From positions 1 through 25,536 of the forward strand of contig JABLUY010000370.1 in assembly GCA_013306675.1 (NCBI GenBank): DNA of 25,536 bases, written 5' to 3'. Shown here piece by piece: positions 1,964 to 25,200 of the stretch (its first letter is position 1; each line of letters opens with the position of its first letter). The position numbers and the translations under genes were made by a program. This stretch comes from Thraustochytrium sp. TN22. Lineage: Eukaryota; Sar; Bigyra; Thraustochytrida; Thraustochytriidae. The notes beneath the pieces are model-generated. The model was not told the origin of the DNA, made no database searches, and saw only the letters and a program-made list of their open reading frames with translations.

Positions 1964-3010
1964 ATGGACCCGATCTCAGGGCTGGCGATCGTGTTGCAGC
2001 TGGTGAGCGATGCCTCTTCGATGCTCGAGCACGCGCGCGCTTGCAAGCGCAAGGCCACGCACCTGCGCAGCTCGCTGGAGCAGGTGTCGTCGCGGTTGCA
2101 GCAGCTGGATGAGGCGGACGTGGACGTCTCACAGCTGGAAGCGCAAATGAGGGAGATCGTGGGCCTGCTGCAGCCGCACTTCGGGTCGACCAAGGGCCCA
2201 GCAGCGCGCATCCTGGCGCTTATGAGCGTGCGCACGGCGAGGCAGGCGCTCACGGACGCTGAGCAGCATCTGCAAACGACGCTGCAGCTGTGCCAGATCG
2301 ACCTGGTCCTCCCGCGGCGTCGGTCAGGCGTTCCAGGCGGTGGCTCGTTGCGCGATGAGACGGAGGCGGACGAGGAGGACGACCGCCGCGATCTGCTGCA
2401 GGGGCTGGAGCAGTTGCGCGAGGCCGGCCAGCTGTCGGGCGACCACGTCGATGTGGTCATCGAGATGTTGCGCGATGCGCCGAACGCGGACCTGGCCGCG
2501 GTGCAGGAGGGCCGCCTCGGCACACGGCACCAACGGCGCGCCGTGGACCAGGTGACCATTTGTCTGATCCATGAGCACGAGGCGGAGGTGGCGACCTTGG
2601 CGAGCGACCGCGTGTGGCTGCACTCGCCCGAAGAGCTGCTGGGCGAGGGCCGCTTCGGCCAGGTCCTGGCCGGCACGATGATCAATGAGGACGGCGAGGA
2701 GGAGGATGTGGCCCTGAAGCGCGTGCGGCCGTCGGCGAACCGTCTGCAGGTGCAGGAACAACAAGCACTGGTGGCGGAAGCGGAGAACTGGACCGGTCTT
2801 GTGCACAAGAACATCGTCTGCCTGCTGGGCACCTGCATCCTGGACAACCAGTTCCACCTGGTCATGGACCGCTGCGACATGTCGCTCGATGACCTCCTGT
2901 ACGAGCACGAGGTTCATGCTACCCATGAGGCGCTGCTGACGCTGGACAACCGTGAGACGGTGCTTCGCGGCATCTCTCGCGGCCTCGAATACCTGCACGG
3001 CAAGGGCATT

Positions 3011-3041
<31 letters not shown>

Positions 3042-5875
3042 TCCTGAGTCATGACCTGGGCCGCGTCAAGCTGGCCGACTTTGGCTTGTCGACGCGCACC
3101 GTCGCGGACGGCAGCTACGCAGAGACCGTCCGGCCGGTGGGCACGCCGCTGTACATGGCGCCCGAGGTGCTGGAGCCTCCGGCGCGCTGGACGACGCGCG
3201 CCGACATTTACTCGCTCGGCATCATCATCTGGGAGGTCTACCACGGGCAGACACCCTTCTCGCAGGGCGGGTCCGGCACGGACTTTGAGGCGCGCGTGCA
3301 GCGTGGCGAGCGACCCGTCATCTCGGACGAGGTGGACATTCGCCTCTGGGTGGTGCGCATCATCGAGCGCTGCTGGCAGCATGACCCGGTGCTGCGCCCT
3401 CGCGCCTCCGAGGTGCTGCGCGAGTTCGACCAGCACGGCCAGGGCGGGACGCGCCGCCGCTCCACGACCATCATCAAGACCGTCGTCAAGCGCTTCTCGG
3501 CGGCCTACAGCAAGCGCACGGGCAAGCACGTGCTCTCGCAGCGCCGCAGCAGCCGTCGCAGCAGTGGCAGTGGTGGCGCGGCGCCGCGGCAGCAGCAGCA
3601 GCGGGCGCAGCAGGCGCAGCAGCAGGCCTCGCTGCGGGGCGCCAGCGGCGGCGGCGGCGGCGCTTCGGTGTACTCGATCCAGACCTGGCTGAGCCAGCTC
3701 GCCAACGGGTCCCACGACACGGCCGACACGCTTCAAGCGCTCCACGAGGCGCTCGAGTACGAGTACGAGGCGGAGCGCGCTCTCTCGGACGGTGCCCTGG
3801 CCCAGGAACAGCTCCGCGAGGAGGCGCGCTCGCGCGGCGTCTTGCGCGACATCAAGGTGGTCCTGGAGCGCGAGTCACAGGTGCGGCTGCTCACGCAGGC
3901 GCTCTGGGTCATCCACTTCTCGCTCACGGGCCGCGGCGCGGGCGCCTTCCGCGAGCCGGCCGTGGAAACCTTTGGCCTCGGCGCGCTCGCTTGCCGCCTG
4001 ATGCGCAGCAACCAAGGCTCCGCCGACCTGCAGGCCGCGGCCTGCGCCGCCATCGGCAGCATGGCGCTCAAGACACGCAAGAACCAACAGAAGCTCGCTG
4101 GGGACGAGAACGCCGCAGTCGCCGTTGTCGAGGCGCTGCGCGCTTTCCCGCGTGATGCCGGCGTGCAGGCAAACGCGTGCGCCGCCGTCGCCAGCCTGGG
4201 CGAATTCGGCGACTGCAAGAAGGCCATGGTGCAAGAGCTGAACGTCGGCGAGCTCCTTGGGGCTGCCATGCGCGCGCACCAGCGCAACGCCGATGTGCAG
4301 GAGGAGGCGCTGCACGCCATCTCCGTGCTGGCCTCGTCCGACATGGGCGACGGCATTCTCAACGGCGACCCGGCCACCAACATGCTGGCCCAGCTCATGG
4401 CGCTCGCCAGCGCCTTGGACTCGGTCGCCGCAACGGAGCGCAACCGCGACATCCTCGGCAAGGAGCTCCGCCTCGGTCCCGACATCGTCTCGGCCATGCG
4501 CGCGCACCGCTCGCACGTTGGCGTGCAGGCCATGGGCTGCGACGCCGTACGCATGCTGGCCGTCGACGATGACCTGGAAGCCACCTTCGTCATGGAGCTG
4601 CGCGCTGGCGTCGACATCCTTGAGGCCATGCGCGCACACCGCAACAGCCTCGCCGTGCAGACCAATGGCTGTGGCGCGATCTGGCATCTGACCGCGGCGC
4701 AGGCACACCAGGAGGTCCTTGGTGTGCAGCTGCACGCTGGCGTCGATGTGGTGGCGGCCATGCGCGCGCATCCAGGCGACGCCAACCTCATGAAGCTCGC
4801 CTGCGCTTCGCTTTGGAACCTGTGCCGCATTGAGAGCTCCGCCGTGGCGCTCGTGCAGCAGGACGGCGGCGCGGCCGCCGTTCTTCAGGCCATGCGCGCA
4901 CACCGAGGCGTCGCCATCGTGCAAGAGAAGGCCTGCGGCGCGCTCTGGCGCATGAGCGACAACGAGCGCAACCGAGTGGTGCTCTGCCAGCAGCTCGGCG
5001 CGGGTGGTGACCTGCTCGAGGCGATGCGCGCCCATCGCCAGGACGACGACGTCCAGATGCTCGCCTGTTCCACGCTCTGGAATCTCGCCGAGGACCTTCA
5101 GAACCAGGTCATCTTGGGCCAGCAACTCCGCGCCGGCACCGAGATCGTCCAAGCCATGCGCACGCACGCCGACAAGGTCCCAGTGCAGGTCAAGGCCTGC
5201 GGTGCGCTCTGGAACCTCGCCAAGAATGACAGCAACGAGGTGGACCTGGTCCAGTCACAGGGCGCCGCCGCCGCCATCCTAGACGCCATGCGAGAGCACC
5301 GCGACCAGGTGGAGCTCCAGGTCCTAGGGCTCGCGGCGCTTTGGAACATGTGCTACAACGAGCGAAACCAGATTATCATCGGTCAGGACTTGAACGCGGG
5401 AGCTGAAGTCCAGCTCGCCATGCGCGCTTTCCGCGACGAGCCCACCGTTCAGGAGAAGGCCTGCGGCGTCATTTGGAAGCTCGCCCGCAACGACGATAAC
5501 GAAGTCGCCCTCGTGCAGACCACCGGTATCGGGCCCGACATCGTCACGGCCATGCGCACGCACATCTCCCGAGCCAACGTCCAGGCGATCGCCTGCGCCG
5601 CGCTTTCCAGCCTCGGCGTCAATGCCCGCAACAAGCAAATCCTTGGCCGCGACCTCAACATCGGCCAGGAGGTCCTTGCCGCCATGCGCGCCCACCGATC
5701 CGACCGTGGCGTGCAGGAGCGCGCCTGCGCCGCGCTCCTCACGCTCGCCTTTGGCAATGAGATTCGACAGATCCTCGCGCGCCAAGGCGCCGCCACCGAC
5801 ATTGCCCAGGCCCGCACCAACTTCCCCGACCTCCAGCTCGCCTCCGTCGTCTACCTCATGTTCTCTACTTCTTAG
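1964..5875 (+). CDS. Helical-bundle/protein kinase/ARM-repeat protein (candidate MLKL-like cell-death kinase)
   Basis: The protein has 1303 residues and begins at the first ATG of the frame (MDPISGLAIVLQ...). Residues about 3-115 form four amphipathic helices with a hydrophobic first helix, resembling the HeLo/RPW8/MLKL-type bundle. An acidic linker (about 132-140) and more helices to about 185 follow, like an MLKL brace. A Ser/Thr kinase of TKL character spans about 219-490, with a GEGRFG loop (227-232), Lys252 in ALKR, HRDLKPANVLL (Asp353, Lys355), DFG (Asp372) and APE (399-401). All catalytic residues are present, so it should be active. A basic linker and a Gln/Ala- and Gly-rich stretch (about 532-566) lead to about 13-14 ARM-type units reaching the C-terminus. 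In plants and animals, bundle-kinase proteins of this layout permeabilise membranes in cell death; that role is only inferred here. An ordinary signalling scaffold kinase is the alternative. The kinase call is very sure, the bundle call moderate. Confidence 0.9.
4496..5815 (+). repeat. Coding ARM array with exact 132-bp period
   Basis: The A of the AMR-motif ATG falls at 4496, 4628, 4760, 4892, 5024, 5156, 5288, 5420, 5552 and 5684, always 132 bp (44 codons) apart. Earlier, more diverged units lie upstream (for example 4136 and 4268, also 132 bp apart). The unit consensus is roughly AMRAHR-x4-VQ-x2-AC-x-ALWNL-x-N-x2-N-x3-L-x-Q. The ten units therefore contain no net insertions or deletions. 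Confidence 0.9.
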
Positions 5876-6006: not shown

Positions 6007-6767
6007 CCCTTCTCTCATGATGGTGGCCTTCAAGTTGTTCCGGTCGCCGTCGCTGGCGACCAAGCTCGCGGGCTGGCAAGCCCTAGATGTCCGTGTCAAG
6101 CCCGCGCGTGAGCTAGCCCGCCCTTTACGCTGAGACTCCTCTCGAGTCAGGGTGGTCGAGGTCCTGCACTTCTTCCTGCTTGTGGTCGTCCTTGACCTCG
6201 TTCCGGTCGCCGTCGCCGGCGTCAGGGCTCATGAGCCGTGAAGCCCTGGAAGCCCTTGCCTTGCGCGCGCGCGTGAAATAGCCTGCCTTTTTCGCCGAGA
6301 CTTCTCTCGGGCCAGGCTCTGCTCTAGGCTCTGCTCTCGGTCCTCCTCTCGTGGTCGTCGTCCTGCACCTCGTGGTCTTTGACCTGCACCTCAAGGTCGT
6401 GGCCCTGCCTATCGTGGTCATCGCCTTCCACTCGCGGTCCTCCTCCGCGCTCTCTTCCTCCTCTCCTCCGCGCTCTCTTCCTCCTCCTCCTCCGCGCTCT
6501 CTTCCTGCTTCCCCTCCTCGGCCTGCTCAGCCTCCTCGTCGTCGCCCAGGCTCCTGCTCCTTTTTCTCCTTCTCCTTCTCCTCGCTGTGCTCGGAGCCCA
6601 GGAGGTCGTCCCGGCGCTCGGCGACAGAGCCCAACCAAGCGCGGCGGCGGCAACGGAGACGGCGGCGCGAGGGCAAGAGCGGCGGACGGCGGCAGCGGCG
6701 CGGACGCGCTCCGCGACGGCCCGGCCCTGCCCGGCCCGCGGCCGCGGCCAGCTGCGTCCGAGTCGCC
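5876..6767. other. Non-coding stretch between kinase and RING-CH genes
   Basis: This holds the 3' flank of the kinase gene and the promoter and leader of the RING-CH gene. It contains the second copy of the stop-codon duplication, a degenerate 163-bp duplication (6038 onward and 6201 onward) and a strongly pyrimidine-rich CTCCTCC stretch at about 6430-6590. The frame upstream of ATG 6768 stays open back to about 6351 but has no ATG, so I do not count it as coding. Confidence 0.6.
6038..6385 (+). repeat. Degenerate direct duplication, unit about 163 bp
   Basis: TTCCGGTCGCCGTCGCTGGC at 6038 matches TTCCGGTCGCCGTCGCCGGC at 6201. GAGACTCCTCTCGAGTCAGG (about 6131) matches GAGACTTCTCTCGGGCCAGG (about 6296). 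Further downstream both units carry GTCCTGCAC and TGACCT motifs in order. Indels separate the blocks, so this is an old copy. Confidence 0.6.
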
Positions 6768-7733
6768 ATGGAGGCACTGCGTGGGCGGCGCGAGGCCAAG
6801 AGCGGTACGGAGCGCGGCGCGGCGGCCGCCGCGAGCGACCTGGACGAGGTGTCCAGCGAGGACGCGGAGGAGGGCCTCGGCGGAACGGAAGAGCAAGTCG
6901 AGACGGCGTCCGAGGCCAGCGCCTCGCGCCTCTGCAGGTTCTGCTACATGGAGGAGGAGCCCGGCGGCGAGGAACTCGTCGCGCCCTGCGATTGTGCCGG
7001 CACGATCAGGTTCGTGCACGCCTCGTGCCTGAATCAGTGGCGCATGATGAACCTTGACAACGACCGCAGGTTCCGCTGCCAGCTGTGCCAGCGGCCGTAC
7101 CGGCTGGCGGGCGCGACGCACGGCGCGTGGCGGCCCCGGCGCGAGGTGGTGGATGCGGCAGTGCGCTGCGTGAGCGGCGCGCTGCTGGCGCCGCTGGCGG
7201 TCGGTGCGCTCTTTCTGTCACGCGTCGTGCGCCGCGACGACCTGTATGTGCACGGGCCCACGAGCGTGTACGCGCGGCCGTGGCGGCGCCGCACGTTTGG
7301 CAGCCTGCTGAGCGCCGAGGTGCTGGCGGACATCAACCTCTTCATCGTCGGCGCGGACCCGCGCAAGCTCTCGCGCGTGGCGCTAGCCATTTACGGGCTC
7401 GCCAAGCTCGGCAGCTACGGCTGCACCTTTTGGCTGTTTACGGATGGCCTCGCGGACGTCATTCCAGTGCACGTCCAGGACGCCAACGGCGAGGTACGGC
7501 CCTCTCCCATGATTGCCATCCTCAAGGCCGTGCTGGAGTTCTACATTATCCCATTCTTTTTGCGCACACCTCAGTCGCGCATGAAGCTGCCCTTTTTCGC
7601 GCTCACAAGCGGCGTCGGCCTTTGGTTTATCTGGGCCTGGATCCACAACCGCTTCCGCGCTCTCCTGCTCGAGTACTTGCCAGCGTACCGCCGTCTCGAG
7701 CTGGGCGAGCTGGACCGCGCTGTCGCGAATTGA
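6768..7733 (+). CDS. RING-CH (MARCH-type) membrane E3 ubiquitin ligase
   Basis: The product has 321 residues. The start is the only in-frame ATG before the domain and sits in GCCATGG context. After an acidic, low-complexity N-terminus (1-50) comes a C4HC3 RING-variant zinc finger with ligands Cys56, Cys59, Cys74, Cys76, His84, Cys87, Cys104 and Cys107. The CDCAGT and HASCLNQW signatures mark the RING-CH family, which recruits E2 enzymes and ubiquitinates membrane proteins. Hydrophobic segments near 127-150, 203-225, 248-265 and 274-293 suggest two to four membrane spans, with the RING facing the cytosol. The protein is far too short for Doa10/MARCH6, which has about 14 spans. The substrate and membrane cannot be read from sequence. 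The gene converges on NSA2 downstream. Confidence 0.9.
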   Translation: MEALRGRREAKSGTERGAAAAASDLDEVSSEDAEEGLGGTEEQVETASEASASRLCRFCYMEEEPGGEELVAPCDCAGTIRFVHASCLNQWRMMNLDNDRRFRCQLCQRPYRLAGATHGAWRPRREVVDAAVRCVSGALLAPLAVGALFLSRVVRRDDLYVHGPTSVYARPWRRRTFGSLLSAEVLADINLFIVGADPRKLSRVALAIYGLAKLGSYGCTFWLFTDGLADVIPVHVQDANGEVRPSPMIAILKAVLEFYIIPFFLRTPQSRMKLPFFALTSGVGLWFIWAWIHNRFRALLLEYLPAYRRLELGELDRAVAN

Positions 7734-8193: not shown

Positions 8194-8976
8194 TTACACA
8201 AGCAGCACCGCGTTGATGCAGCCGTCGAGCTCCGGGTTGTTGGTGACCTGGGCGTAGGAGCCCGTCACGACCTTGCCCGAGGTGGTGACGAGGCCCAGCT
8301 CGTGCGTGGCAACCTCGATGATGGTACCCTTGGACAGGACGCCGAGCGCGGTGTAGGTGGTGGAGTGCGGGTTCTTCTTGACGCCGAGGATCTCGAGCTG
8401 GAAGGTCGCCTTGAGCTCCGGGTGCGTGACGTTGGCCTTCTTAAAGCGCAGGCCGGTGGGGCGGATGAACTTCTCGTACTTTGGCGGCTTGCGCGTAAAG
8501 GACGGGTCCACGAAGACGGGCAGGTTGACGCGGCGCTTCCACGACTTCTTCTGCCGCTTGCCCGAGCGCATCACCTGGAAGACCTCCGAATCGGCCAGCG
8601 GCTTGACCTTGGGGATGGGCACCTCCCACTTGCCGGCCTTCTCCTTGCGCTTCTGCTTGACGGAGTTGCTCAGCACCTTGGCGCGGTTCGTCTCCTCACG
8701 GTCCAGCAGGTACGCCGGCAGCGCGCCCTTTTGCACCTCCTCCTCCTTGGCGTGCTTGTTCTTGCGCTCGTCGTGCATGGCGATGGTCTTGCGCATCTCC
8801 GCCTTCTCCTTGAACCGCTTCTGGTTGTACAGCTTCGCCTTCAGGCCGTGCACCTTCTGCGCGTACTTGGACCGCCGGTGCGCCTCGCGCGCGTCGCGCT
8901 TGCGCTCGCGCTCCTCCGCGTCGAAGCGCCGCCCGTAGCGCTTCGTGTGGAGCTCCATGTGCTCATTCTGCGGCAT
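8194..8976 (-). CDS. NSA2: Ribosome biogenesis protein NSA2 (60S maturation factor)
   Basis: The product has 260 residues, the same length as the human protein. NSA2 is a nuclear/nucleolar GTPase-associated factor of pre-60S particles, needed for 27S pre-rRNA processing. The start [15 protein letters not shown] and the end [17 protein letters not shown] match the family at both termini, which fixes the ATG at 8976 rather than any codon upstream. The N-terminal third is rich in Lys, Arg and Glu (helical, rRNA binding). The middle has the conserved RAKVLSN and [18 protein letters not shown] blocks, followed by [20 protein letters not shown]. The C-terminal part is the S8e-like beta domain. The gene is intronless and conserved; nothing is odd except a GC-rich, open leader upstream. 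Confidence 0.97.
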
Positions 8977-9659
8977 CTTGCCCGCGCCGCCGGCCCAGCC
9001 GCCGCCGCCGCCAACGAGGGACCGAACGAGGGGGGCGCCGGAGGGGCCCTCGCGCCGCGCCGCCGCTCGCCCGCCGCCGCGCCGCCGCCGCCTCGACTCC
9101 GCGCGCCGTCGGAGGTCTGCCTGCCTGCCGGCGCGCGCGCTTGGACCGCGCGGCCAGCGGTTCTGCGCGTCCACTCCTTCGTCGACACTGCCGTCGCCAC
9201 TATTGTCTACACGCCGGACTTTGCTGAGCTCATGATCATGATCCGGCGACAGCCTCTACCTAGCTTAGGCCTAGCTAAGAGCTGTGCTGGCCGCTCGCCT
9301 CTGATTTGCGCATCGCGTGCGGAATGCTGGCGAGCAAAGCAGACGGACCTCTCCAAGCTGGTCGTCTGCGCGTGTCTCGCCAACTTGCACGAGGGAGAAC
9401 GTTGGAGCACATGACGAGCGGACAAGCGAAAGGTCTTGCAGCCAAACTGCGTTTGCTGTGGCTAAGAGCTAGTCAAAGAGCGTCTGCTCTCTGGTCGAAC
9501 TGTATTCGCTGCTCTGGTCAGACTGCACTGGCCGAGCCCCGTCTGCAGAGTCGACGGAAAAGCGAGCTTGAGCTTTGAGCTGGCAGTGGCAGAGTCGACG
9601 GAGAGCGAGCTTGAGCTTGAGCTGGCAGTGGCCTTTTACATAAGAGCAAGCCTGAGGAA
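8977..9659. promoter_or_regulatory. NSA2 promoter/leader and hydratase 3' flank
   Basis: Bases just above 8976 are extremely GC-rich and continue the NSA2 frame for 66 codons without an ATG, so they are probably the leader. Further right the composition drops. There is a perfect 12-bp palindrome TCATGATCATGA (9230-9241), a CCTAGCTTA/CCTAGCTAA pair around 9259-9277 and, next to the hydratase stop, a 43-bp tandem repeat (9547-9632). I find no gene in it. Confidence 0.5.
9547..9632 (+). repeat. Tandem repeat, two copies of about 43 bp
   Basis: Copy 1 (9547-9590) and copy 2 (9591-9632) both run from AGAGTCGACGG to GAGCTGGCAGTGGC. They differ by small changes, including a 2-bp length difference. 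It lies 27 bp beyond the hydratase stop codon, in its 3' flank. Confidence 0.9.
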
Positions 9660-10460
9660 TCACTCCTGCGGCAAGACAAAGGGCGCCTCGCGCTTCTCGA
9701 AAAAGGCGGAGATGCCGTCGCGGCACTCCTGGGAGTCGCGCTGGTCGGCGAGGCGGGTGGCGGTGTCAAGCATGAGGTCGTGGGTGATGGCGCGGCCGGC
9801 GACGGCGTTAATGAGATCCTTGGAGGCGGCCATGGCGCCGGGCGCGTTGACGGCAAAGTGGCCCTTGGCCCAGGTCTCGAACTTGTCGAGGTCGTCGGCC
9901 TCGGGGACGACCTCGGAGAGCAGGCCGATGCGGCGCGCCTCCTCGGCGTCGAAGCGCTCAGCCGTGAGAAAGTAGCGGCGACTCTGCTGCGGGCCGATGC
10001 GGCGCACGACGTAGGGCGCGATGGTGGCCGGGATGAGCCCAAGCTTGACCTCAGACAGCATGAACTTGGCCGAGGCCACGCCCACGGCCATATCACAGGC
10101 CGACACGATGCCCACGCCGCCGCCAATGGCCGCGCCCTGCACGAGCGCCACCGTGGGCAGCGGCAGCGACGCGAGGTCGTTCAGCATGCCGCTGAGCTCC
10201 ATGGCGTCCTTGATGTTTTCCTCCTTGCTGTACGTGGCGGCCTTCTTCATCCACCCCAGGTCTGCGCCTGCCGAGAAGCTCTTGCCCTCGGACCGCACGA
10301 AGAGCGCGCGCGGCGCCTCCTTGCGCACCATGCTCAGCAGCTCTCGCATCGTCGCGATCATCTCGTCCGACATGGCGTTGTGCACCTTGGCCCTCGTCAT
10401 CGTCAGCGTCGCGAAGCCGCCCTCCGACAGCGCCAGCTTTGCCGTCTCGCGGACCGCCAT
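9660..10460 (-). CDS. Enoyl-CoA hydratase family, methylglutaconyl-CoA hydratase-like
   Basis: The product has 266 residues, the usual crotonase length. The fold hydrates 2-enoyl-CoA thioesters. The closest pattern I know is the LiuC type of leucine breakdown, which hydrates 3-methylglutaconyl-CoA to HMG-CoA. Visible are HNAMSDEM (27-34), the oxyanion-hole block FSAGADLGWMKK (62-73), GAAIGGGVGIVSACDMA (109-125), SEVKLGLIPATIAPYV (136-151, Glu137 at the catalytic Glu164 position of rat hydratase) and RRYFLTAERFDAEEARRIGL. Gly replaces the other classical Glu (GGGVG instead of GGGxE), as I recall for LiuC-type enzymes. No mitochondrial presequence or PTS1 is seen from this ATG, although the frame stays open upstream. 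Exact substrate is inference; family membership is firm. Confidence 0.9.
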   Translation of the reverse strand: MAVRETAKLALSEGGFATLTMTRAKVHNAMSDEMIATMRELLSMVRKEAPRALFVRSEGKSFSAGADLGWMKKAATYSKEENIKDAMELSGMLNDLASLPLPTVALVQGAAIGGGVGIVSACDMAVGVASAKFMLSEVKLGLIPATIAPYVVRRIGPQQSRRYFLTAERFDAEEARRIGLLSEVVPEADDLDKFETWAKGHFAVNAPGAMAASKDLINAVAGRAITHDLMLDTATRLADQRDSQECRDGISAFFEKREAPFVLPQE

Positions 10461-10936
10461 TCTCGCAGTCCTCCCTCCTGCACGAGCTCCTGACCCCGAC
10501 TCGACTCGACTCGACTCGACTCGACTCGGCGCGGGCTGGCTGCTGGCCGGAGGCGCCTTGCACTGCCCGCTGTCGCCCACCGACCGCGCTGCTGCTTTGC
10601 CCGCCGCGCGCGCGAGGCGTCGCGTCGCTCGCCCGCTCGCTCGTGAGAGCTTGGGATCAGGATTTGCGTCGTGGTCCGCAGGGCGCACTCAGCTCGAGCT
10701 GGGGCCATCATGACCGACCTTGAGCCAAGGCACTGGAGGAAGACCACTGCAGGGCGGTCCCAGGGCGGCGCGCTCGACGTCCTCTGCAGCGCACACTCAC
10801 TGACTGTCAGCTCGACGAAACCGAGCGCGACGTCTCCGACCACTGCAAGCTCGGCTACTGCGACAGGTATCATACATCATCATGGTTTTAGCTCAAGCCA
10901 CCATGTCGGCTGGCCGTGCGCGCTGCGCGCCGCAGG
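10461..10936. promoter_or_regulatory. Hydratase promoter/leader and PAN-gene 3' flank
   Basis: The hydratase frame stays open for at least 76 codons above its ATG, but without an ATG. The leader includes a (CGACT)6 pentanucleotide run. The remainder contains short CATCATCATGG-type motifs near 10870 and no recognisable gene. It should hold the hydratase promoter and the end of the PAN-like transcript. Confidence 0.5.
10497..10526 (+). repeat. Pentanucleotide repeat (CGACT)6
   Basis: Six uninterrupted CGACT units lie 37 bp upstream of the hydratase start codon, probably in its 5' leader. On the transcribed strand the repeat reads (AGTCG)n. Confidence 0.95.
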
Positions 10937-12489: not shown

Positions 12490-13509
12490 CTACAAAGAGG
12501 CGACCTGAATGACGAGCTTGCCGCGCGCCCCATGGGCCATGAGCTTGGCGAGCGCCTGGTCTACACCGGCCTGAGAAAAGGCCACAGGCGAAGCGCCGTC
12601 GAGGACGGCGCGCAGCTCGCCGGCCTCGACGGCGTCCGCGACGGCCTTGAGCCGGGCAGCACTGGTCTCGACCATGACGAGGCGGTATTCGGGCCCGGCG
12701 CAGACGACTTTGCGCCATGCAATGCTGGCGAGCGCGCCGCCGACGCTGCCTGTGGCCTCGCAGAGGTTGCGCGCCAAGAAGTCAAGGCCGAGCGGCGCCA
12801 CGTCAACGAAGACACCGCGCGCGGAGCGGCCATAGACGGCGCGGCTGCGCGCGTAGGCATCCCTCTCGCCAATGCAGTCAAAGACCAAGTCCACGCCGCG
12901 GACCGTCTCCCACCAGCGCTGCTCCCTGTAGTTGATGACCTGATCTGCGCCCAGCGAGACAACGAGCTCGGCGTCCCGCGCGGTGGTCGCCACGAATCCG
13001 GCACCACGGGCCTTGAGTAGCTGCAATAGCGCAGAGCCCACCCCGCCGGAGCCACCCAGAACGAGCGCGCGTGCGCCTACAGGCATTTTGGCCGCCTCCA
13101 GTGCCTGCAGCGCGACGCGGCCCACCATGGGGAGCGCTGCGGCATGCACAGCGCTCGTGCCGCCTGGCTTGCGCGCGGCGCGCTTCGGGTCGACCTTGGC
13201 GAACTCCGCGATTCCCTCTTGACTGATAAAGTCCGTATCGGCGATGACCTCGTCTCCGACCTGGAATTCGACCACCCGCGCGCCCACGGCCTCCACGACG
13301 CCGCACAGATCGCAGCCCAGCACCTGAGGAAACCTGGCGCCCGTCAGAAAGCGCGCCTTCCCGGACACGAAGTGCGCGTCGCCCGCGTTGAGCGCGCCCG
13401 CCAGGACGCGGACGATCATCTTGTCCTCATCGCCAGGGCCCAGCACCGGCTTGGGCCAGCCGTCCTCCACGCGCACCTCATCGAAGCCGCGGACAACGAC
13501 AGCGCGCAT
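12490..13509 (-). CDS. MDR-family NADPH:quinone oxidoreductase-like protein, copy 1
   Basis: The product has 339 residues, typical for the zinc-less quinone-oxidoreductase branch of the medium-chain dehydrogenase/reductase superfamily, which reduces quinones, enones or enoyl thioesters with NAD(P)H. It starts MRAVVVRGFDEVRVED and has the GroES-like N-terminal domain with LNAGDAHFVSG, FPQVLGCDLCGVVEAVG (60-76) and VGDEVIA. The Rossmann domain has the nucleotide loop LGGSGGVGS (151-159) and SLGADQVINY (185-194). The cysteine cluster of zinc alcohol dehydrogenases is missing. It shares the RWWETVRGVDLVFDCIG block with the two genes to the right, so all three are paralogues. It is divergent from copy 2, 636 bp away. 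The start is fixed by alignment with the paralogues. The substrate is unknown. Confidence 0.9.
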   Translation of the reverse strand: MRAVVVRGFDEVRVEDGWPKPVLGPGDEDKMIVRVLAGALNAGDAHFVSGKARFLTGARFPQVLGCDLCGVVEAVGARVVEFQVGDEVIADTDFISQEGIAEFAKVDPKRAARKPGGTSAVHAAALPMVGRVALQALEAAKMPVGARALVLGGSGGVGSALLQLLKARGAGFVATTARDAELVVSLGADQVINYREQRWWETVRGVDLVFDCIGERDAYARSRAVYGRSARGVFVDVAPLGLDFLARNLCEATGSVGGALASIAWRKVVCAGPEYRLVMVETSAARLKAVADAVEAGELRAVLDGASPVAFSQAGVDQALAKLMAHGARGKLVIQVASL

Positions 13510-14145
13510 GCTGCTCGTCTCGGTACTGCGGCGGCGGCCGCGCGGCCCGTGCTTGCTCCGGCGGCGCCCGCCGCGTGTGACACAGCTGCGGGGGTCCTAG
13601 CTCCTCCGCGCTGCCGCAAGCCACCATCCAATGCGATGCACACATTGCTGAAAGGTTGTGCAAAAAGGGCGATGTCACCCCACCGAGATTCTTCTCCTTG
13701 GTTTTGACCCGCCAAGCGCTAACTTACTGTTAGTAGATTCTTCTCCTCGACCCGTTACACGCCTCGAAGGCTCCGACCGCGTCGTCAGGGCGAGCGCACA
13801 CGTGCCACACGCCTCGTAGTAATCGCTGCTTCGAGCGCATCCTTCGCAGTCAGTCACCATCGCTCGCTGCGCCTGCCGCTCCCTCAGGCTGCCAGTGCCT
13901 GGCTTTGCTCTGTACATCGGGACACATGCGATGCATCCCGATGCGCGATGTGATGTCGCGGCCGTGGCTCGGGCCGCGATATGGGCGTGTTGCATCGCGC
14001 AAGTCGGCGCCTGTGGCGCTCGCACCTGCCGCAGAAGCAAACAGACAACGCCGTATGCCTGCTGGCCATCTGCGTCTCTTGTGTCTGTTGCGTCCCCCGA
14101 GATCTCTCTCTCTCTCACTCCCTCTTCTCCTTCTCTCATTGGCGA
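13510..14145. promoter_or_regulatory. Divergent promoter region between MDR copies 1 and 2
   Basis: This 636-bp stretch separates two head-to-head paralogues and should hold both promoters. It includes two GATTCTTCTCC motifs (about 13685 and 13736), two potential small hairpins (13915-13943 with CATCGGGA/TCCCGATG arms; 13956-13979 with TCGCGGCC/GGCCGCGA arms), and a CT-rich tract with CTCTCTCTCTCTC at about 14100-14140 directly before the copy-2 ATG. Part of it (from 13981) is open in the copy-2 frame, but the paralogues do not support coding there. Confidence 0.55.
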
Positions 14146-15282
14146 ATGAGGGCGGCCGTCGTAACGAGGTACGGCGCGCCAGACGATGTGGTGCACGTAG
14201 TGGAGGACTACCCGCGGCCGAGGCTGGGGCGCTGCTCGAACAAAATGGTGGTGCGCGTGCTGGCGGCTGCGCTCAACGCGGGCGATGACATCACTCTCAC
14301 GGGCCGCGCCAGGGGGCTCATGAGCGAGGTCGACTTCCCCTTTGTCTTGGGCGGCGACTTGTGCGGCGTGGTGGAGGAGGTAGGGAGTCTGTGCCGTGGT
14401 TTCGCGGTAGGCGACCGCGTGATCGCACAGCTGGACTTTCGCGACGCGCACGGCATGGCCGAGCTTGCGCTCGTGGACGGCAGGCGCGCAGCGCGCGCGC
14501 CACATGGCCTCTCGGCGCTCGAGGCCGCGGCGCTGCCCACGGCCGGCATGACGGCGCTTGAGGCAGTCGCCAAGGCCAAGATCGAGCCGGGCAACCGCGT
14601 GCTCGTGCTCGGCGGGTCGTCCGGCGTCGGCTCGCTCGTTGTGCAGCTGGCCAAGGACGCCGGCGCAGGCTTCGTGGCCGCCACCTCGCGCAACCAGGAC
14701 CTGGTCGCCTCGCTCGGCGCGGACCAGGTCATCGACTACTCGGTCACGAGCTGGTGGGAGGACGTGCGCGACCTGGACGTGCTCATCGACGCCATCGGCG
14801 ACGCGGACCTCATGGAGCGCGCGCGCGGCGTCTTTGGCTCGCGCAGCGCCAGGCTCGTCACGGTGAACCCGCTCGGGCTCGACTTCTCGGTTGAGACCAA
14901 GCTCGAGGCGCTGTCCACAGCCATGGGCTTCCTCCGGCGCGGCTGCCAGCAGCGCTTCTCCGCGCGCTACAAGATGTCCGTGGTCGACTTCAAGGTCACG
15001 CCTGCGCGCTTGACGGCGCTCGTGGACGCCGTCGAGGCGGGCCGTCTGCGTCCCGTCCTGGACGAGCGTTGTCCCTTCGCCTTCGACCAGGACGGCGTCC
15101 TGCACGCCGCCAACCTCCTGCACGCGCACGCCGGCAAGGGCAAGCTCGTCGTCGAGGTCGCCGCGTCCCCCGACGTCCCCAACGACCCCGATGCGGCCGG
15201 CCCCGACGCCGTCGGCGCCCATGCATCCGCCTCCAAGGCCGCCGTCGCGCCCGGCTCCTCTCCGGGCCCGGCCGAGCTCTAA
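14146..15282 (+). CDS. MDR-family NADPH:quinone oxidoreductase-like protein, copy 2
   Basis: The product has 378 residues. An earlier in-frame ATG at 13981 would add 55 residues unlike either paralogue, so I use MRAAVVTRYGAPDDVV, which aligns with copies 1 and 3. Domain order is GroES-like (to about 120) then Rossmann. Marks are LNAGDDITLTGRA, FPFVLGGDLCGVVEEVG (64-80), AAALPTAGMTALEAV (127-141), LGGSSGVGS (155-163), AATSRN (178-183) and SLGADQVIDY (189-198). The C-terminus carries about 40 extra Ala/Pro/Ser-rich residues after KGKLVVEVAA, absent in the paralogues. No zinc-binding cysteines are present. Closest relative in the window is copy 3. Expected activity is NAD(P)H-dependent reduction of a quinone or activated alkene; the true substrate cannot be told. 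Confidence 0.9.
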   Translation: MRAAVVTRYGAPDDVVHVVEDYPRPRLGRCSNKMVVRVLAAALNAGDDITLTGRARGLMSEVDFPFVLGGDLCGVVEEVGSLCRGFAVGDRVIAQLDFRDAHGMAELALVDGRRAARAPHGLSALEAAALPTAGMTALEAVAKAKIEPGNRVLVLGGSSGVGSLVVQLAKDAGAGFVAATSRNQDLVASLGADQVIDYSVTSWWEDVRDLDVLIDAIGDADLMERARGVFGSRSARLVTVNPLGLDFSVETKLEALSTAMGFLRRGCQQRFSARYKMSVVDFKVTPARLTALVDAVEAGRLRPVLDERCPFAFDQDGVLHAANLLHAHAGKGKLVVEVAASPDVPNDPDAAGPDAVGAHASASKAAVAPGSSPGPAEL

Positions 15283-16538: not shown

Positions 16539-17582
16539 ATGCTGGCGGCCGTGGTGACCGCGTACGGCGCGAGCGCGAACGTGGTGGAGGTGCGCGAGGA
16601 CGCGGCGCGGCCGGCGCTGGAGCAGGGCAAGATGCTGGTGCGCGTGCTGGCGGCCTCGCTGAACGCGGGCGACGCCATCGCGTACTCGGGGCGCGCGCGC
16701 ATGATCTTGGGCAAGCAGAAGTTCCCGTACGTGCTGGGCGGCGACATCTGCGGCGTGGTGGAGGAGGTGGACGCGGCCGCTGAGGGCGGCTTCGAGGTGG
16801 GCGATGTGGTGATCGCGGATGTGGGCTTTGAATCGCTGGCTGCCGGCGCGGCCGAGGTCGCGCTCGTGGACCCGGCGCGCGCCGCGCGCAAGCCGGAGCG
16901 GCTCTCGGCCGTGGAGGCGGCGGCGCTGCCGACGGCCGGCATGACGGCGGTGGAGGCGGTGCGCAGGGCGGAGCTGGCCGGCGGCGAGCGCGTGCTGGTG
17001 CTGGGCGGCTCGGGCGGTGTGGGCAGCATCGTGACGCAGCTGGTCAAGAGCGCCGGCGCGTCCTTTGTGGCCGCCACCTCGCGCAACGCGAACCTGGTCA
17101 CCTCGCTGGGCGCTGACCAGGTCATCGACTACACGCAGACGCGCTGGTGGGACGCGGTGCGCGAGGTCGACGTGGTCATCGACTGCATCGGCGACGCCGA
17201 CGCCATGGTCAAGAGTACCAAGGTGCTGCGCCGCGAGAACCCGCGTCTGGTTACCGTCAACCCGGTGGGCCTGGACGTGAGTGCGCGCAACGCGTACGAC
17301 GCGCTCTGCATTGGCACTTCGCTCGTGGGCCGCATGGTGCGCCAGAAGCTCACAATGCGGGCGCCCAAGACTTCGGTGGTGGGCATCAACCCCTCGCGCG
17401 AGTCGCTCGAGGCCGTTGTCGCGGCTGTGGACGAGGGCCGCTTCACGCCACTGCTCGACGCCAAGTCGCCCTTTCCTCTCACGCAGGCCGGCGTCCGCGC
17501 CGCCTGCCACCAGCTCGAGACGTACCAGGCCAAGGGGAAGCTCGTCATCCAGGTTGCGCCGGAGCAGAAGCGGGAGGACTAA
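16539..17582 (+). CDS. MDR-family NADPH:quinone oxidoreductase-like protein, copy 3
   Basis: The product has 347 residues, starting MLAAVVTAYGASANVV, with an A at -3 of the ATG. Domains are GroES-like then Rossmann, with LNAGDAIAYSGRARM, FPYVLGGDICGVVEEV (62-77), AAALPTAGMTAVEAV (127-141), LGGSGGVGS (155-163), FVAATSRNANLVTSLGADQV and WWDAVREVDVVIDCIGDAD. The last block is nearly shared with copy 2. It lacks the catalytic zinc cysteines. The short acidic/basic tail EQKRED replaces the long tail of copy 2. Tandem order with copy 2 and strong similarity point to duplication. The enzyme class is firm; substrate and compartment are unknown. It ends 105 bp from the convergent queuosine-salvage-like gene. 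Confidence 0.92.
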   Translation: MLAAVVTAYGASANVVEVREDAARPALEQGKMLVRVLAASLNAGDAIAYSGRARMILGKQKFPYVLGGDICGVVEEVDAAAEGGFEVGDVVIADVGFESLAAGAAEVALVDPARAARKPERLSAVEAAALPTAGMTAVEAVRRAELAGGERVLVLGGSGGVGSIVTQLVKSAGASFVAATSRNANLVTSLGADQVIDYTQTRWWDAVREVDVVIDCIGDADAMVKSTKVLRRENPRLVTVNPVGLDVSARNAYDALCIGTSLVGRMVRQKLTMRAPKTSVVGINPSRESLEAVVAAVDEGRFTPLLDAKSPFPLTQAGVRAACHQLETYQAKGKLVIQVAPEQKRED

Positions 17583-19166: not shown

Positions 19167-21251
19167 TCATTCTGCTCTCTTCAGGAGTGGTTCTCGGAGA
19201 TGGAGGCTCTCCAGCGCGGTTTGGATCTCCGGGAGTCCGACCTCGATCGCAGCGTCGACCTCGACCGAAGACTTTGACGGCGCCGGCGGGGCAGGCGGTG
19301 GTACAGCAGGTTGATGGAGGGGCTCGCAGCCCGTTCGGACGTACGCCAGCACGGGCGACTTCGGGTGCGCAGCGCGAACTTCGGCAGCCCAGGTACGAAC
19401 AAAAGTCACGTAGAATGCCTCCAGGTCCAGCTGCTCCTGGGAGAGCGCCTGCGAGGGCCCGCCAGTTGCGGCCCTGAGACTTTTGTGTGTCTTGTATGCG
19501 CGGTGGTACGTGTCGAGAAGCTCGCGCATGCGTGGGGGAATAAACAGGCAACGTCTAGCCCGCGTGACCGCCACATACCACAAGTTGAGCCCGTCGCTCC
19601 ACGACGGAATGGTCAGTTTGACGGCAGACCTGCCTGCATGTGCAGGGTCCCGCTCGAAGCCGGCAAGCTCAATGAGGTCATCGCAGACTTCGACATTGTC
19701 CCACTCCTGGCCCTTCGCAGCGTGCACGGTGCTGAGGAGCACGTCAGCCTCGCTAGCGTCGACCTCGGAGTCAAGGACGTAGTGACGGAACTTTTCCACC
19801 ACACTCAGCGTCCCCCTTTTGTAGCGGTTGACAATGGACACCGCGAGGCTGTACTTGGCCAGCTTGCGCAGGCGAACTTCGTCGACGAAGATCCTCCAGC
19901 TCACCGCTTGATTCGTGAATTCGGGAAAGGTGACAGAAGTCACGCGTCCCAAGAAGAGCTGGAAGGCCTCTTGGAGAACCTTCAGTGCCGTGTTCCAGCG
20001 GTTCCTCCCCGAGCCTTCGCCTTCGCCGTGAATCGCGAAGCGGAGCTGCGGGACGCTGCCATCGCTCATACTGCTGATCATCTCCAGCGCTCTGGAGAGC
20101 AGCATCATGTTCGTGTGGGCAATGATGGTCACTGGCTGACCAGCGCCAAGCGGCGCTTGGCTCGTGATGTGCACCTTGCCCGCGTGCGGGGCGCCACCAT
20201 GAACGCGGTAAGGCTGCCAACCTTCCGGCGAAACCTTCTCCTTAAGGAAGAGGATCGTGTTGGCAACCGATGCGATGTCTTGCCCAAAGCGAAAGCTCGT
20301 TGTCAGCTTGCAGTCGATGCAGTCGGCGAGCTCGAGCAAATTCGCGGCTTTGGCGCCACGGAACCCATAGATGGTCTGCACGGCATCCCCCACATAAACG
20401 GTGAACTTGCCGCGACGGGTATTTAGCCGCACCCACGCAATCTGGCTCGCGCTGCAGTCCTGTGACTCGTCGACGAGCACGGCTGAGCCGGGGATGGCCA
20501 CGCCGCGGAGCTGAGCCTCTTTCATGATGACGTCGAAGGTGGTGAAGCCTGCCGGCGAGACACCCTTGGCGTTGGGCCGCAGCAAGCAGTACATCTTGCG
20601 CGCATTTCGGGTATACAAGTCGCCAAATCTCGTGTCCAGGTAGCTTGCCGTCTTGTGGTGCCGTTTGGCAGGGTAGTAGGTCTTATTAAACTTGCGGTGG
20701 TCGAATCCTTCCTGCTCTGTGTCCGCACTTGCAGTGAACTGGCTCAGCGTCTTGCGAATGTGAAACACCATTTTCACTGTCTCCAGCTGCCGTAGCGCAG
20801 GCTTGCTCGCAGGAATACGGCGCAGCCGGTACTGGATGTCGTCCTTGCATTGAATGCGGATGAGTTTCTCCACGTCGCTGTCATCGCCGACCCGGAAACT
20901 GGCGTCCAGGCCCAGGCTCGCGCTGGCTTGCGCGTGTAGCGTTCGGCACCTCACGCCCTCTGGCAGCCTATTCTGGGCGTCTGCGGCTGCCGACCGGTTG
21001 AAGGTTAGGTACGTGACCTGCGTATGCCCCAGCTCCTTGAGGCGCGCTGCGAGCACCTCCAGGGTCGTGGTCTTGCCGGTCCCCGCCGCCGCCGTCACGC
21101 GGACCACCACGCCGTCGGTCGGGACGTCCCTGGGCGCGCGCGCCAGCGCCACCACGCCCGCCTGCTCCTCTGTCAACGCCCTCGTCGGGAGGCGCGAGGC
21201 GCTCATCATCCGATCCTTTATGAGCACCGAGTACTGCCTTTGCTCGCTCAT
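19167..21251 (-). CDS. UvrD/Rep-type SF1 DNA helicase, FBH1-like
   Basis: The product has 694 residues from ATG 21251 (MSEQRQYSVLIKD). A 3'-5' ATP-driven helicase is indicated by ordered SF1A motifs: Q motif LTEEQAGVV (26-34), Walker A AAAGTGKTT (54-62), Ia YLTFNRSAA (81-89), Walker B VLVDESQD (258-265), III VYVGDAVQTIYGFRGAK (285-301), IV LTTSFRFGQDIASVAN (316-331), V STVHAAKGQEWDNVEV (507-522) and VI NLWYVAVTRARR (556-567). The SFRFGQDIASVA and VHAAKG-EWDNVEVCDDL blocks are closest to FBH1, an anti-recombinase that removes Rad51. No F-box is seen at the N-terminus, and the protein is shorter than human FBH1. Its C-terminus is Pro-rich then acidic. Base composition is clearly lower in GC than the neighbours. 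The helicase call is certain, FBH1 orthology likely but not proven. Confidence 0.92.
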   Translation of the reverse strand: MSEQRQYSVLIKDRMMSASRLPTRALTEEQAGVVALARAPRDVPTDGVVVRVTAAAGTGKTTTLEVLAARLKELGHTQVTYLTFNRSAAADAQNRLPEGVRCRTLHAQASASLGLDASFRVGDDSDVEKLIRIQCKDDIQYRLRRIPASKPALRQLETVKMVFHIRKTLSQFTASADTEQEGFDHRKFNKTYYPAKRHHKTASYLDTRFGDLYTRNARKMYCLLRPNAKGVSPAGFTTFDVIMKEAQLRGVAIPGSAVLVDESQDCSASQIAWVRLNTRRGKFTVYVGDAVQTIYGFRGAKAANLLELADCIDCKLTTSFRFGQDIASVANTILFLKEKVSPEGWQPYRVHGGAPHAGKVHITSQAPLGAGQPVTIIAHTNMMLLSRALEMISSMSDGSVPQLRFAIHGEGEGSGRNRWNTALKVLQEAFQLFLGRVTSVTFPEFTNQAVSWRIFVDEVRLRKLAKYSLAVSIVNRYKRGTLSVVEKFRHYVLDSEVDASEADVLLSTVHAAKGQEWDNVEVCDDLIELAGFERDPAHAGRSAVKLTIPSWSDGLNLWYVAVTRARRCLFIPPRMRELLDTYHRAYKTHKSLRAATGGPSQALSQEQLDLEAFYVTFVRTWAAEVRAAHPKSPVLAYVRTGCEPLHQPAVPPPAPPAPSKSSVEVDAAIEVGLPEIQTALESLHLREPLLKRAE

Positions 21252-21873
21252 TTCAGTCTTCACATGGCATCAAGGCGGCGGTCGGTCACTCGTGATCAGA
21301 ACCTTCCCGCCGCGGCCAGTCCACTGGCAGGAGGTAACTCGGCACCGGTGACGGCAATCGCGCATGGTGCCAATCTACCAGCCCGGCGCATGAAGTACAT
21401 GCATCGAGACTCGGCAACCACTGGCCACCTTTCACGAGTCGCTTGACCTTGAGCTCGACGCGTGGAAGCCAGTTCTCCGTCACGTCCTGGCAATCTTTTC
21501 AGGAAAAATCCTCCTCGCGTCGCATCTCTCAGCTTTGCGTGCCTGGGCGAAAGCGCTCCGTCTCGTGTCCGAGATGCTCTCGGCATCCGCGACGTGGGCC
21601 GTTGTCCGCGGTCTCGGCCGTCGTCCTCGGTCTTGGCCGTCGTCCGCGATCCCAGCCGCCGCCCTCGACGTCGGTCATCTTGAAGACCGTCGCTTGGCCT
21701 CCATCATCTTGGCCTCCATCATCTCCACGTCCTCACTGTCATCAGGCTGTCATCAGGCTGCTCGTCCTCCACGTTCAGGTTCATGCCTGACTGACTGTGA
21801 CTCAGAGATCAGACCTGGGACGCGAGTTGGCGGCGCGACTCCGCTCGCTCGCGCAGCCAGCGGTCGCGGCGGC
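21252..21873. promoter_or_regulatory. Divergent promoter region, helicase / SEL1L gene
   Basis: This 622-bp stretch lies between two head-to-head genes. The side next to the SEL1L gene is open in its frame from 21535 but lacks a credible signal peptide there, so I treat it as leader. It contains three adjacent small tandem duplications with periods of 19, 15 and 11 bp (21597-21758). No other gene is seen. Confidence 0.55.
21597..21758 (+). repeat. Three adjacent short tandem duplications (19, 15 and 11 bp)
   Basis: A 19-bp unit of the form GGCCGTCGTCCNCGGTCT starts at 21597, 21616 and 21635 (imperfect). CTTGGCCTCCATCAT occurs at 21693-21707 and 21708-21722. TGTCATCAGGC occurs at 21737-21747 and 21748-21758. 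The periods are unrelated, so these are independent local duplications. Confidence 0.85.
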
Positions 21874-24800: not shown

Positions 24801-25200
24801 CCGGCCCTTGGCTCGGCTGGACCGCGTGCCGAGCGAGGCGCTCTTTTCGCGCGTGGACCGGCCGCTGCCGCCGCTGCAAGCGCTTCTGCTAGGCGAGCTG
24901 CGGCAGGTGCACGGCGACCTGGCGGGCGCGCGAGAGGCCTGGGTCGAGGCGGCGCTGCAGGGCGACTGGACGTATCAGGCCATCTACCGCGCACAGGCCA
25001 GCTACAATCTTGGCATGGAGGCCCTGCGCCTGCGGGAGTTCCAGCGCGCGCGCGCCTTTCTGGTCAAGGCGGAGTCCTTTGTGGAGTACGCCGGGGGCGA
25101 CGATCAGGGCAGTGGCGCGCTCTTTGCCCTGGCCTTGGCTCGCTGGCGCGTTTGGGCCGTCGAGCGACTCCCCGAGTTCCTCGCGCAAGGCTGGCAGTGA
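21874..25200 (+). CDS. SEL1L/HRD3-type ERAD protein with N-terminal LamG-like domain
   Basis: The product has 1108 residues. The ATG at 21874 gives a signal peptide (MRAATGAAAALLAALLASVA, cut near 21), so it enters the ER. An N-terminal beta-rich part (30-340) contains a Gly/Ser/Asn low-complexity loop (109-126). Residues about 366-545 look like a LamG/concanavalin-type domain (WTLMVWLAV, GRWTHVAMVV, VDVYLDG). From about 628 come Sel1 repeats: ETQVLHEF...YYLGQAELGDADAM, then YWGSRGLARDHARAYRYFERAA, LGYIYFFGHGDE and AVRYLRQAALRGSWGRRL...GDYEASLFHYL. These follow SEL1L in order. SEL1L/HRD3 receives misfolded glycoproteins and stabilises the HRD1 ligase. Unlike SEL1L it has no C-terminal membrane span, ending EFLAQGWQ. 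The identity is strong; the missing anchor and the added LamG are the oddities. Confidence 0.92.
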   Translation: MRAATGAAAALLAALLASVAAERSARRHDGALKGTINVTVMGANGEAADVSAHGCCTWDELEVAVRVAVPRVAGTYAAWGVAVVDEDSGEMLQRLELSPNADAHGNKASSGGGGGSSSSSSKNNNDNRAEPWVTWETQQERLEEALQVFDGLRPAVGCEVADVWEEPLEASCGYGAHWPQLVEARQEGENKYVFMFNRNTDQPAVATHEDVLHVLSFSQPPGARLRGEWATPRELHVHVVEATTKGPSTSPTEDGSEAAPSTATFSVQVRKHPRADGGAELRALRRGVPGEAAILEARHRLRLGFEARVRFLVHTADPATAALRSAVIEIADCERAQAATEPPRTTLPVRPRPLSAPEREPVLRMDETLVLRESTLLLPRLSGALALPHRSAPFEQEAWTLMVWLAVDPRQPHEGLRAVLYHGEGRGHEDGPRTPSLWLMPGTGQLALRVSTVDHADYGVDTPEAFPRGRWTHVAMVVRNETTTSGRFRVDVYLDGQRALQLDEPAASVLACPGELHFAHDAWGSGLWGYARHLEVLRRAVPASEVLDAMERTQAGLNEAVSLAWEAEQAWAPASEAAGSADQCKRDDIDDVCADAHSLVAVTTDLDGTDPGPLLELATQELPHMDLDALKRAARAGSAEASFLQAAWGWASRFVNASQTKSSLLAGMERAALDGSIEAKLVLAETWRRRGHCRTALAYYSDVATRSLTEHTTRGQQPLVETQVLHEFVRDEGEKGEDDLNIQYYLGQAELGDADAMVAVGNWYYWGSRGLARDHARAYRYFERAANAGQPDGMTACGNMLLKGEGMEAKNVSAAIARYRRAADHQQLAALNGLGYIYFFGHGDEIAKNASRALEYFERNLRDGDSLYNAAHIYLHEPGLLNLGRAVAYLRRAADDFQSVPAAHALGQLRAVDPHGCADAVRYLRQAALRGSWGRRLRQGFDAFLRGDYEASLFHYLLGALLGYSRAAENAIWLLGRPLARLDRVPSEALFSRVDRPLPPLQALLLGELRQVHGDLAGAREAWVEAALQGDWTYQAIYRAQASYNLGMEALRLREFQRARAFLVKAESFVEYAGGDDQGSGALFALALARWRVWAVERLPEFLAQGWQ
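22198..22245 (+). repeat. Coding trinucleotide tract (GGC/AGC/AAC) in the SEL1L gene
   Basis: Runs of GGC then AGC then AAT/AAC-type codons encode five Gly, six Ser and several Asn around residues 109-126. It forms a flexible loop between two beta-rich parts and is likely to vary in length between strains. Confidence 0.9.

Follow-up and report, generated by a model that had tools for sequence, protein, structure and literature searches.

A family of kinase-armadillo repeat proteins in a thraustochytrid, with homogenised repeat arrays in some members and a candidate MLKL-like N-terminal domain

In animals, fungi and plants, helical bundles of the necroptosis type have been described (PMC11476962 and PMC12881547, in the accessible text of each), and the accessible text of the former names non-animal homologs for fungi and plants and does not contain the word protist (PMC11476962). 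Whether a protist might possess such a protein is the question raised by a gene in a contig of Thraustochytrium sp. TN22 (JABLUY010000370.1), the whole 25,536 nucleotides of which are called the window here; the window is the entire contig C300 of the genome that was searched (37,891,866 bases in 453 contigs). First-pass annotation of this gene (1964-5875, plus strand) had proposed four amphipathic helices, an acidic linker, a further helical segment and an active kinase in the order of MLKL, with a resemblance to HeLo and RPW8 bundles, followed by an armadillo (ARM) array in an architecture unfamiliar from cell-death proteins.

That domain order was confirmed by translation and by Pfam. From an ATG at 1964, a single stop-free frame of 1303 codons (G+C at third codon positions, 0.87), which aligns with five full-length paralogs, encodes an N-terminal helical domain (NTD; residues 1-116, 1964-2311), an acidic linker with a helical segment in a brace-like position (residues 117-215, 2312-2608), a protein kinase domain (residues 223-487, 2630-3424), a basic, Q/S/G-rich low-complexity linker delimited by eye (residues ~497-571, 3452-3676) and an ARM-repeat region (residues ~680-1290, 4001-5833, outer limits by eye), all on the plus strand. 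The ARM region contains ten regular units of 44 residues (the last of 43; residues 844-1282, 4493-5809, plus strand), neighbours being 25-45% identical in amino acids, which marks the array as old and diverged. The fusion of an ARM array behind the kinase holds up: the ARM family that scores best in the region is ARM_LRRK2 (2e-23, best stretch 1017-1267), and a ZER1-like family (best stretch 888-1045) also passes its cut-off. The likeness to LRRK2 goes as far as this ARM family, whereas the window protein has no Pfam match to LRR or ROC-COR, and its ARM region follows the kinase, unlike that of LRRK2, which precedes it. Neither NACHT nor NB-ARC was matched in Pfam at E ≤ 10.

The kinase domain is matched by PF00069 (1e-47) and PF07714 (9e-47). 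Among the best 60 of 2743 matches in the PDB, one EGFR construct leads and RIPK1 chains follow, a pattern compatible with a TKL-type kinase. As the annotation had read, the catalytic Lys252 (VALK; 2717-2719), the catalytic Asp353 (HRD; 3020-3022) and the metal-binding Asp372 (DFG; 3077-3079), all encoded on the plus strand, are retained in the alignment and motif table. Among phage records, 34 matched the window protein, and the five listed covered kinase residues 277-487 only, with 31% identity for the best, which spanned 43% of the query.

The kinase query found at least 35 places in the genome at E ≤ 1e-20, with C18 in two pieces; this number is a lower bound because 134 of 297 candidates were scored. 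Translations were read for 17 of the 35, among which C80, C277a and C277b are cut by locus ends. The family survey called for by the first-pass annotation thus has a positive outcome: the genome encodes at least nine kinase-ARM proteins (window, C199, C415, C248, C18, C453, C331a, C331b and C80), and a recognisably related NTD is present in seven of them, six found by search and the seventh being C331b. Eight of the nine pass the ARM_LRRK2 cut-off; C80 narrowly misses it (26.0 vs 26.2) and passes that of ZER1-like_2nd. The C331 genes form a tandem kinase-ARM pair (L053, 4881-7721 and 1438-4323, both minus strand), and the NTD of C331a is shortened or diverged.

In a midpoint-rooted tree of 29 kinases, from which five of the 35 places were left out as they had no locus, 15 clade genes fall on one side of a branch with support 98/85; C56 and C50 lie outside this group. 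Eight kinases labelled as ARM (C80 was labelled non-ARM) require a single change, and their grouping has support 56/57. The C-terminal domains across the clade are ARM, WD40, SAM or SRCR. Lys, HRD and DFG are intact in four of the nine ARM kinases (window, C199, C415, C248); C18 has HRE in place of HRD, C453, C331a and C331b have lost several catalytic residues, and C80 shows HRQ and GFG by eye. The kinases of C249 and C232 also keep their catalytic residues. Among these other clade members, C249 (L054, 1936-4821, plus strand) joins a helical N-terminus and its intact kinase to a WD40 propeller. C232 (L055, 1185-5084, minus strand) combines its kinase with a membrane-spanning segment recognised by eye, SRCR and a weak PAN match under cut-off, and resembles a membrane receptor whose kinase lies on the inner side. 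The C39 and C277 genes (L056, L057, L043, L047) are degenerate by eye; C39a, C277a and C277b couple a kinase to SAM, which occurs several times in L056, L043 and L047, and no C-terminal Pfam family was found in C39b.

The stronger and unexpected part of the finding is the evolution of the ARM arrays, and it sits in siblings of the window gene. Units of 44 residues were taken from eight ARM proteins, with C80 left out; the repeats of C199 match an APC ARM structure in the PDB (E 1.8e-10). The C248 array has 11 full-length units, with a longest run of six neighbours at least 85% identical in amino acids and four adjacent 132-bp units identical in DNA. That of C415 has 19 units and a run of four such neighbours, and that of C199 has 10 units, core neighbours 77-86% identical and a run of two. 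Core units share 94% DNA identity in C248 (9 units), 90% in C199 (6) and 84% in C415 (17), with the qualification that the assembly may have the number of exact tandem copies wrong. Compared neighbour to neighbour, two of the eight arrays hold repeats more than 85% identical over at least 100 residues (264 in C248 and 176 in C415; C199 reaches 88), a level that the accessible text of PMC4986451 gives for 16% of fungal NLR repeats, against 0.4-1.2% for plants, animals and dikarya overall.

Amino acid changes in the three homogenised cores (C199, C415 and C248) are concentrated at columns 14, 17, 20, 21 and 24 of the unit, columns 10, 13, 29 and 31 being variable too. Nonsynonymous differences per site (pN) at the five columns amount to 0.33, 0.50 and 0.18, compared with 0.06, 0.09 and 0.04 elsewhere, and the ratio to synonymous differences (pN/pS), a matter of counts rather than a formal selection test, is 3.2 in C199, 0.76 in C415 and 1.5 in C248, compared with 0.35, 0.49 and 0.72 elsewhere. 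When the five columns that vary most in one array were compared with random columns in another, they were the more variable, and five of six comparisons gave p < 0.02 (p = 0.0002, 0.009, 0.071, 0.0015, 0.016 and 0.014). Columns 14-24 lie on the ALWNL helix, which aligns with ALWNLS of APC ARM structures. From the column spacing, the register of the APC alignment and the anatomy of ARM repeats, these columns would gather on one helix face and face the ARM groove. In the accessible texts, helix 3 and a ladder of conserved asparagines are the sites where designed ARM proteins bind peptides (PMC6838082, PMC10684580), and the variable sites of fungal NLR repeats are mainly on the concave side (PMC4986451). 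Some arrays of the family look like fast-changing recognition surfaces. Several observations count against this view of the arrays. The window, C453, C18, C331a and C331b arrays contain no run at 85% or above. In C415, the ratio of 0.76 at the five columns leaves room for relaxed constraint. The five-column set was fixed after part of the data had been seen, and the C415 and C248 arrays are not independent because they are close kin (86% DNA identity; C199 is more distant, at 60%). The window protein, because its array is old and diverged, may be a conserved rather than a fast-changing member. On viral contigs, 13 stretches fit a peptide pattern, and none of them encodes a relative.

Fast change was also seen in the NTD of one young pair. 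Searching the genome with residues 1-120 gave seven places, namely the window and, at E 3e-37 to 2e-4, five full-length genes, C199 (58% identity), C415, C248, C18 and C453, and a broken fragment in C376. This fragment (L012, ~6115-6445) lies near a contig end and, across 334 aligned columns, is 84% identical in DNA to C415. All six full frames are open and alignable throughout NTD and kinase. Their translation starts coincide, an agreement that is partly a choice, since the analyst set where each of the five paralogs begins. In C415 and C248, the youngest pair, the NTD differs by 50 nonsynonymous and 14 synonymous changes (pN/pS 1.2) and the linker by 21 and 6 (1.13), compared with 31.5 and 34.5 in the kinase (0.29; NTD vs kinase, Fisher p 0.0005). 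The synonymous divergence is equal in NTD and kinase (0.16 and 0.17), which speaks against gene conversion of the kinase alone. Among the six of 15 paralog pairs for which dN/dS was computed, dN was below dS in the NTD of C300/C199, C300/C415 and C199/C415, and not in that of C300/C18 and C18/C453. C415 and C248 were also considered as alleles. Their flanks are alike over ~0.4 kb upstream (79%) and ~0.2 kb downstream (75%). Two further matches are shorter, one of 44 bp (89%) and one of 161 bp (84%), and the compared stretches share no more than this, so the likeness is read as segmental duplication. Adjoining C415 is a gene with PfaD (TIGR02814, 5e-198) and FabA-like stretches under cut-off, a layout that is presumably subunit C of the thraustochytrid polyunsaturated fatty acid synthase.

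The proposal of four amphipathic helices stands in part. High hydrophobic moments of the helix type occur around residues 5-22, 25-54, 57-78 and 89-110, but they are low for windows starting at 73-81, within the supposed fourth helix, and the strand-type moment exceeds them in places. The acidic linker and its further helical segment are present in the alignment, with high helix-type moments at ~137-182. The first helix lacks the character of a transmembrane segment, its highest Kyte-Doolittle mean over 19 residues being 1.36. The family NTD is probably a four-helix bundle of the MLKL, HeLo or adaptor kind.

Its likeness to MLKL, which had been proposed beforehand, was examined with profiles run against 177,635 PDB sequences. 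The first profile built, A2, made of the six NTD sequences, returned nine matches at E ≤ 10. MLKL accounted for six of them, at ranks 1-5 and 7 with E 0.0045-0.034, and its top match is collinear over profile positions 2-141, which cover bundle and linker. The reversed A2 profile gave two matches (best E 0.41), neither of them MLKL. In a local test, A2 scored MLKL at 18.5 bits, while the best of 2000 shuffled copies reached 9.4 and the best of 1426 reversed open reading frame pieces 5.4, these pieces being partly repeated as they were drawn from overlapping loci. MLKL also came first locally with the shorter profile A4 (15.2 bits vs 11.1 for the next) and with A7, which includes the C331 pair of profile A6 plus C249 and C80 (13.5 vs 12.5).

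Other results tell against kinship with MLKL, and the first-pass reading of residues 1-190 is only partly supported. Against the PDB, A4 gave 16 matches with TRAF2 first (0.065) and MLKL second (0.071), A6 gave eight, led by a HIP1 coiled coil that falls on the linker (0.0013), with MLKL at 0.079-0.66, and MLKL was absent from the 18 matches of A7. The profile comparison with MLKL is collinear but low in probability. HHalign aligned A4 to one MLKL sequence over 105 collinear columns (P 0.035, probability 1.5%), none of 100 shuffles and one of 78 decoys (over 29 columns) scoring as high. For A2, the probability was 7.5% over 130 columns, and three of 78 decoys beat MLKL over 15-16 columns, in a control with the fault that three decoy sources start at the kinase start and overlap the last A2 columns. 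The Pfam MLKL_N model matches one of the six members, at E = 3. Lipid-binding bundles are generally basic, and in the six members residues 1-116 carry a net charge between -5 and 0, although residues 25-50 carry +3 to +4 in five of six. Kinship with the family NTD extends to C331b (HHalign probability 95.7%), but is unsupported for C331a (7-16%) and for C232, C39a and C39b (<0.5%). Two candidates that align by eye with the six, C249 and C80, were not accepted as NTD family members, HHalign giving 0.2% for the former and phmmer finding nothing in the PDB for the latter. Weak NTD-like matches in C420 and C423 (E 0.3 and 0.7) were dropped as they had no in-frame kinase by eye.

The resemblance to HeLo and RPW8 was not upheld, since the Pfam RPW8 model matched nothing in the genome and HeLo nothing at E ≤ 1. 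The MLKL_N model had one weak match in the genome; this match, on C9 (E 0.1), was dropped, as its 681-residue frame has a WW-like stretch and no kinase by eye. MLKL kinship of the family is thus plausible but unproven, and a position of the NTD closer to MLKL than to adaptor types is somewhat less likely than not.

Known systems share parts of this architecture. Like MLKL, the executor of necroptosis in animals, the window protein has an N-terminal helical domain, a brace-like helical linker and a kinase-type domain, with the weak collinear A2 match over the bundle. It differs in its intact catalytic residues, its neutral-to-acidic NTD, its several paralogs and its long ARM array: MLKL ends with its kinase-like domain, whereas the window protein continues for ~800 residues that include the ARM region. 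The architecture is less unfamiliar than had been supposed, as a bundle with a kinase that keeps its catalytic residues is already present in wheat Pm13 and plant MLKL_NTD-kinase proteins; it is the ARM fusion that is less familiar, Pm13 having 476 residues, a C-terminal kinase and, in the accessible text, no mention of an ARM array (PMC10951266). According to the same text, Pm13 mutants in bundle, brace or kinase lose resistance (PMC10951266). Fungal HELL-kinase and HELL-pseudokinase proteins likewise fuse a bundle to active or dead kinases, as the accessible text describes (PMC12881547), whereas this genome has no Pfam HeLo match and its kinase clade ends in ARM, SAM, WD40 or SRCR. With fungal NLRs, as presented in the accessible text of PMC4986451, the family appears to share a modular N-terminal domain, a switch and, in three paralogs, a homogenised array with clustered variable sites; here the switch is a kinase rather than NACHT or NB-ARC, the repeats are ARM, and the window array is not homogenised.

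In the open-licence literature, no paper was found on MLKL with a thraustochytrid, and a broad search for MLKL in protists had no MLKL among the matches listed. None of the listed matches concerned oomycete MLKL by title or abstract start, or thraustochytrid programmed cell death by title, and HeLo, MLKL, armadillo, WD40 and kinase searched jointly gave only a plant NLR review, by the accessible part of the record. Because these were open-licence papers, such protist proteins may well be annotated in databases unnoticed.

The gene family is real. The explanation that we lean toward, still tentatively, is that its members are lineage-specific receptor-like kinases with an ARM sensor, a kinase switch and a bundle output, every signalling step of which we infer. 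The C-terminal ARM array would bind a ligand in its concave groove, and binding would release or dimerise the kinase, which might then phosphorylate a kinase-dead paralog, the N-terminal region of the same protein or the kinase domain itself. The NTD would be the output module, oligomerising and perhaps acting at membranes in the manner of MLKL and HeLo bundles, to which homology is no more than suggestive; membrane killing by the NTD is possible. Catalytically intact members (window, C199, C415, C248) would form the sensor or trigger arm, while those that have lost such residues (C453, C331a, C331b, C80 and perhaps C18) would be executors or decoys, a division of labour within one family resembling that of RIPK3 and MLKL. 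A bolder form of this explanation, which we consider unlikely, is NLR-analogous sensing in a stramenopile-like protist, with a kinase switch in place of NACHT/NB-ARC, a hypervariable ARM groove reading an invader such as a virus, active and dead siblings relaying as RIPK3 and MLKL do, and a fast MLKL-type bundle executing or signalling death. Elsewhere in the genome, NACHT passed its cut-off seven times and NB-ARC twice (C418, C111, C332, C420, C142 and C76; C316), in frames of 1201-3907 residues. These are possible NLR-like ATPases, but ATPases of other kinds are matched by both models as well, which gave matches, mostly under cut-off, in 11 and 6 of the 14 control genomes.

The alternative that survives best, and that we regard as quite possible if somewhat doubtful, is that the NTD bundle is an adaptor or scaffold docking partners, and the family one of ordinary kinases in signalling that carry ARM scaffolds. 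Cbl and the plant U-box/ARM proteins have N-terminal bundles that dock partners in this way. In Pfam, the consensus of the NTD profile reaches just two families, a tautomerase family and, second after this unrelated enzyme family, DUF7792 (PF25055), an N-terminal domain of plant ARM proteins. The latter match is collinear over residues 6-81 (E 2.5), but both are far under cut-off (8.7 bits vs 27 for DUF7792). ARM_PUB is among the ARM matches of C80 (6e-4, under its cut-off), the NTD is neutral to acidic, and the combination of kinase and ARM is also that of LRRK2, by the Pfam name and by solved chains. However, the fast NTD of the youngest pair would be unusual with fixed scaffold partners, and the A2 search placed MLKL above every other bundle.

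A true MLKL relative executing necroptosis-like death by membrane permeabilisation seems improbable. The first rank of MLKL with A2, the clean reversed control and the local shuffle test point to it, as do the domain order, the paralogs with lost catalytic residues and the plant and fungal precedents (accessible texts of PMC10951266 and PMC12881547), but the MLKL_N match at E = 3, the weak or absent MLKL matches of later profiles, the low HHalign probability and the NTD charge speak against it, and an ARM array behind the kinase is foreign to MLKL. This alternative overlaps the receptor-kinase explanation, so the likelihoods given to the several readings do not sum to unity. It is equally hard to believe in the NTD as a simple dimerising coiled coil under relaxed constraint, with arrays turning over by slippage without selection in a non-immune kinase expansion: short coiled-coil chains do score near or above MLKL with A4, A6 and A7, the C415 ratio is below 1 at the variable columns and slippage or errors of assembly arise readily in GC-rich 132-bp units set in tandem, but six full frames have been kept open and alignable, the same variable columns recur across separate arrays and the kinase of the C415/C248 pair is clearly constrained.

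If the receptor-kinase explanation is true, a protist family extends the pairing of bundle and kinase beyond animals, fungi and plants, its link with homogenised hypervariable ARM arrays would make it a kinase-based counterpart of NLR receptors, and the question of immune-type cell death in unicellular protists becomes testable at the bench.

The remainder of the window encodes, by Pfam, a RING-variant protein (6351-7730, plus strand), an S8e-family ribosomal-type protein (8197-9174, minus), an enoyl-CoA hydratase (9663-10688, minus), three zinc-type dehydrogenases close together (12493-13509, minus; 13981-15279, plus; 16539-17579, plus), a UvrD-like helicase (19170-21263, minus) and a Sel1-repeat/lectin-fold protein (21535-25197, plus). 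Long open frames run antisense to real genes, as expected at a G+C content of 61-74% per kilobase, and the length of an open reading frame alone is a poor test of a gene here. Upstream of the kinase-ARM gene, a direct repeat of ~50 bases was seen by eye at 1-55 and 741-795.

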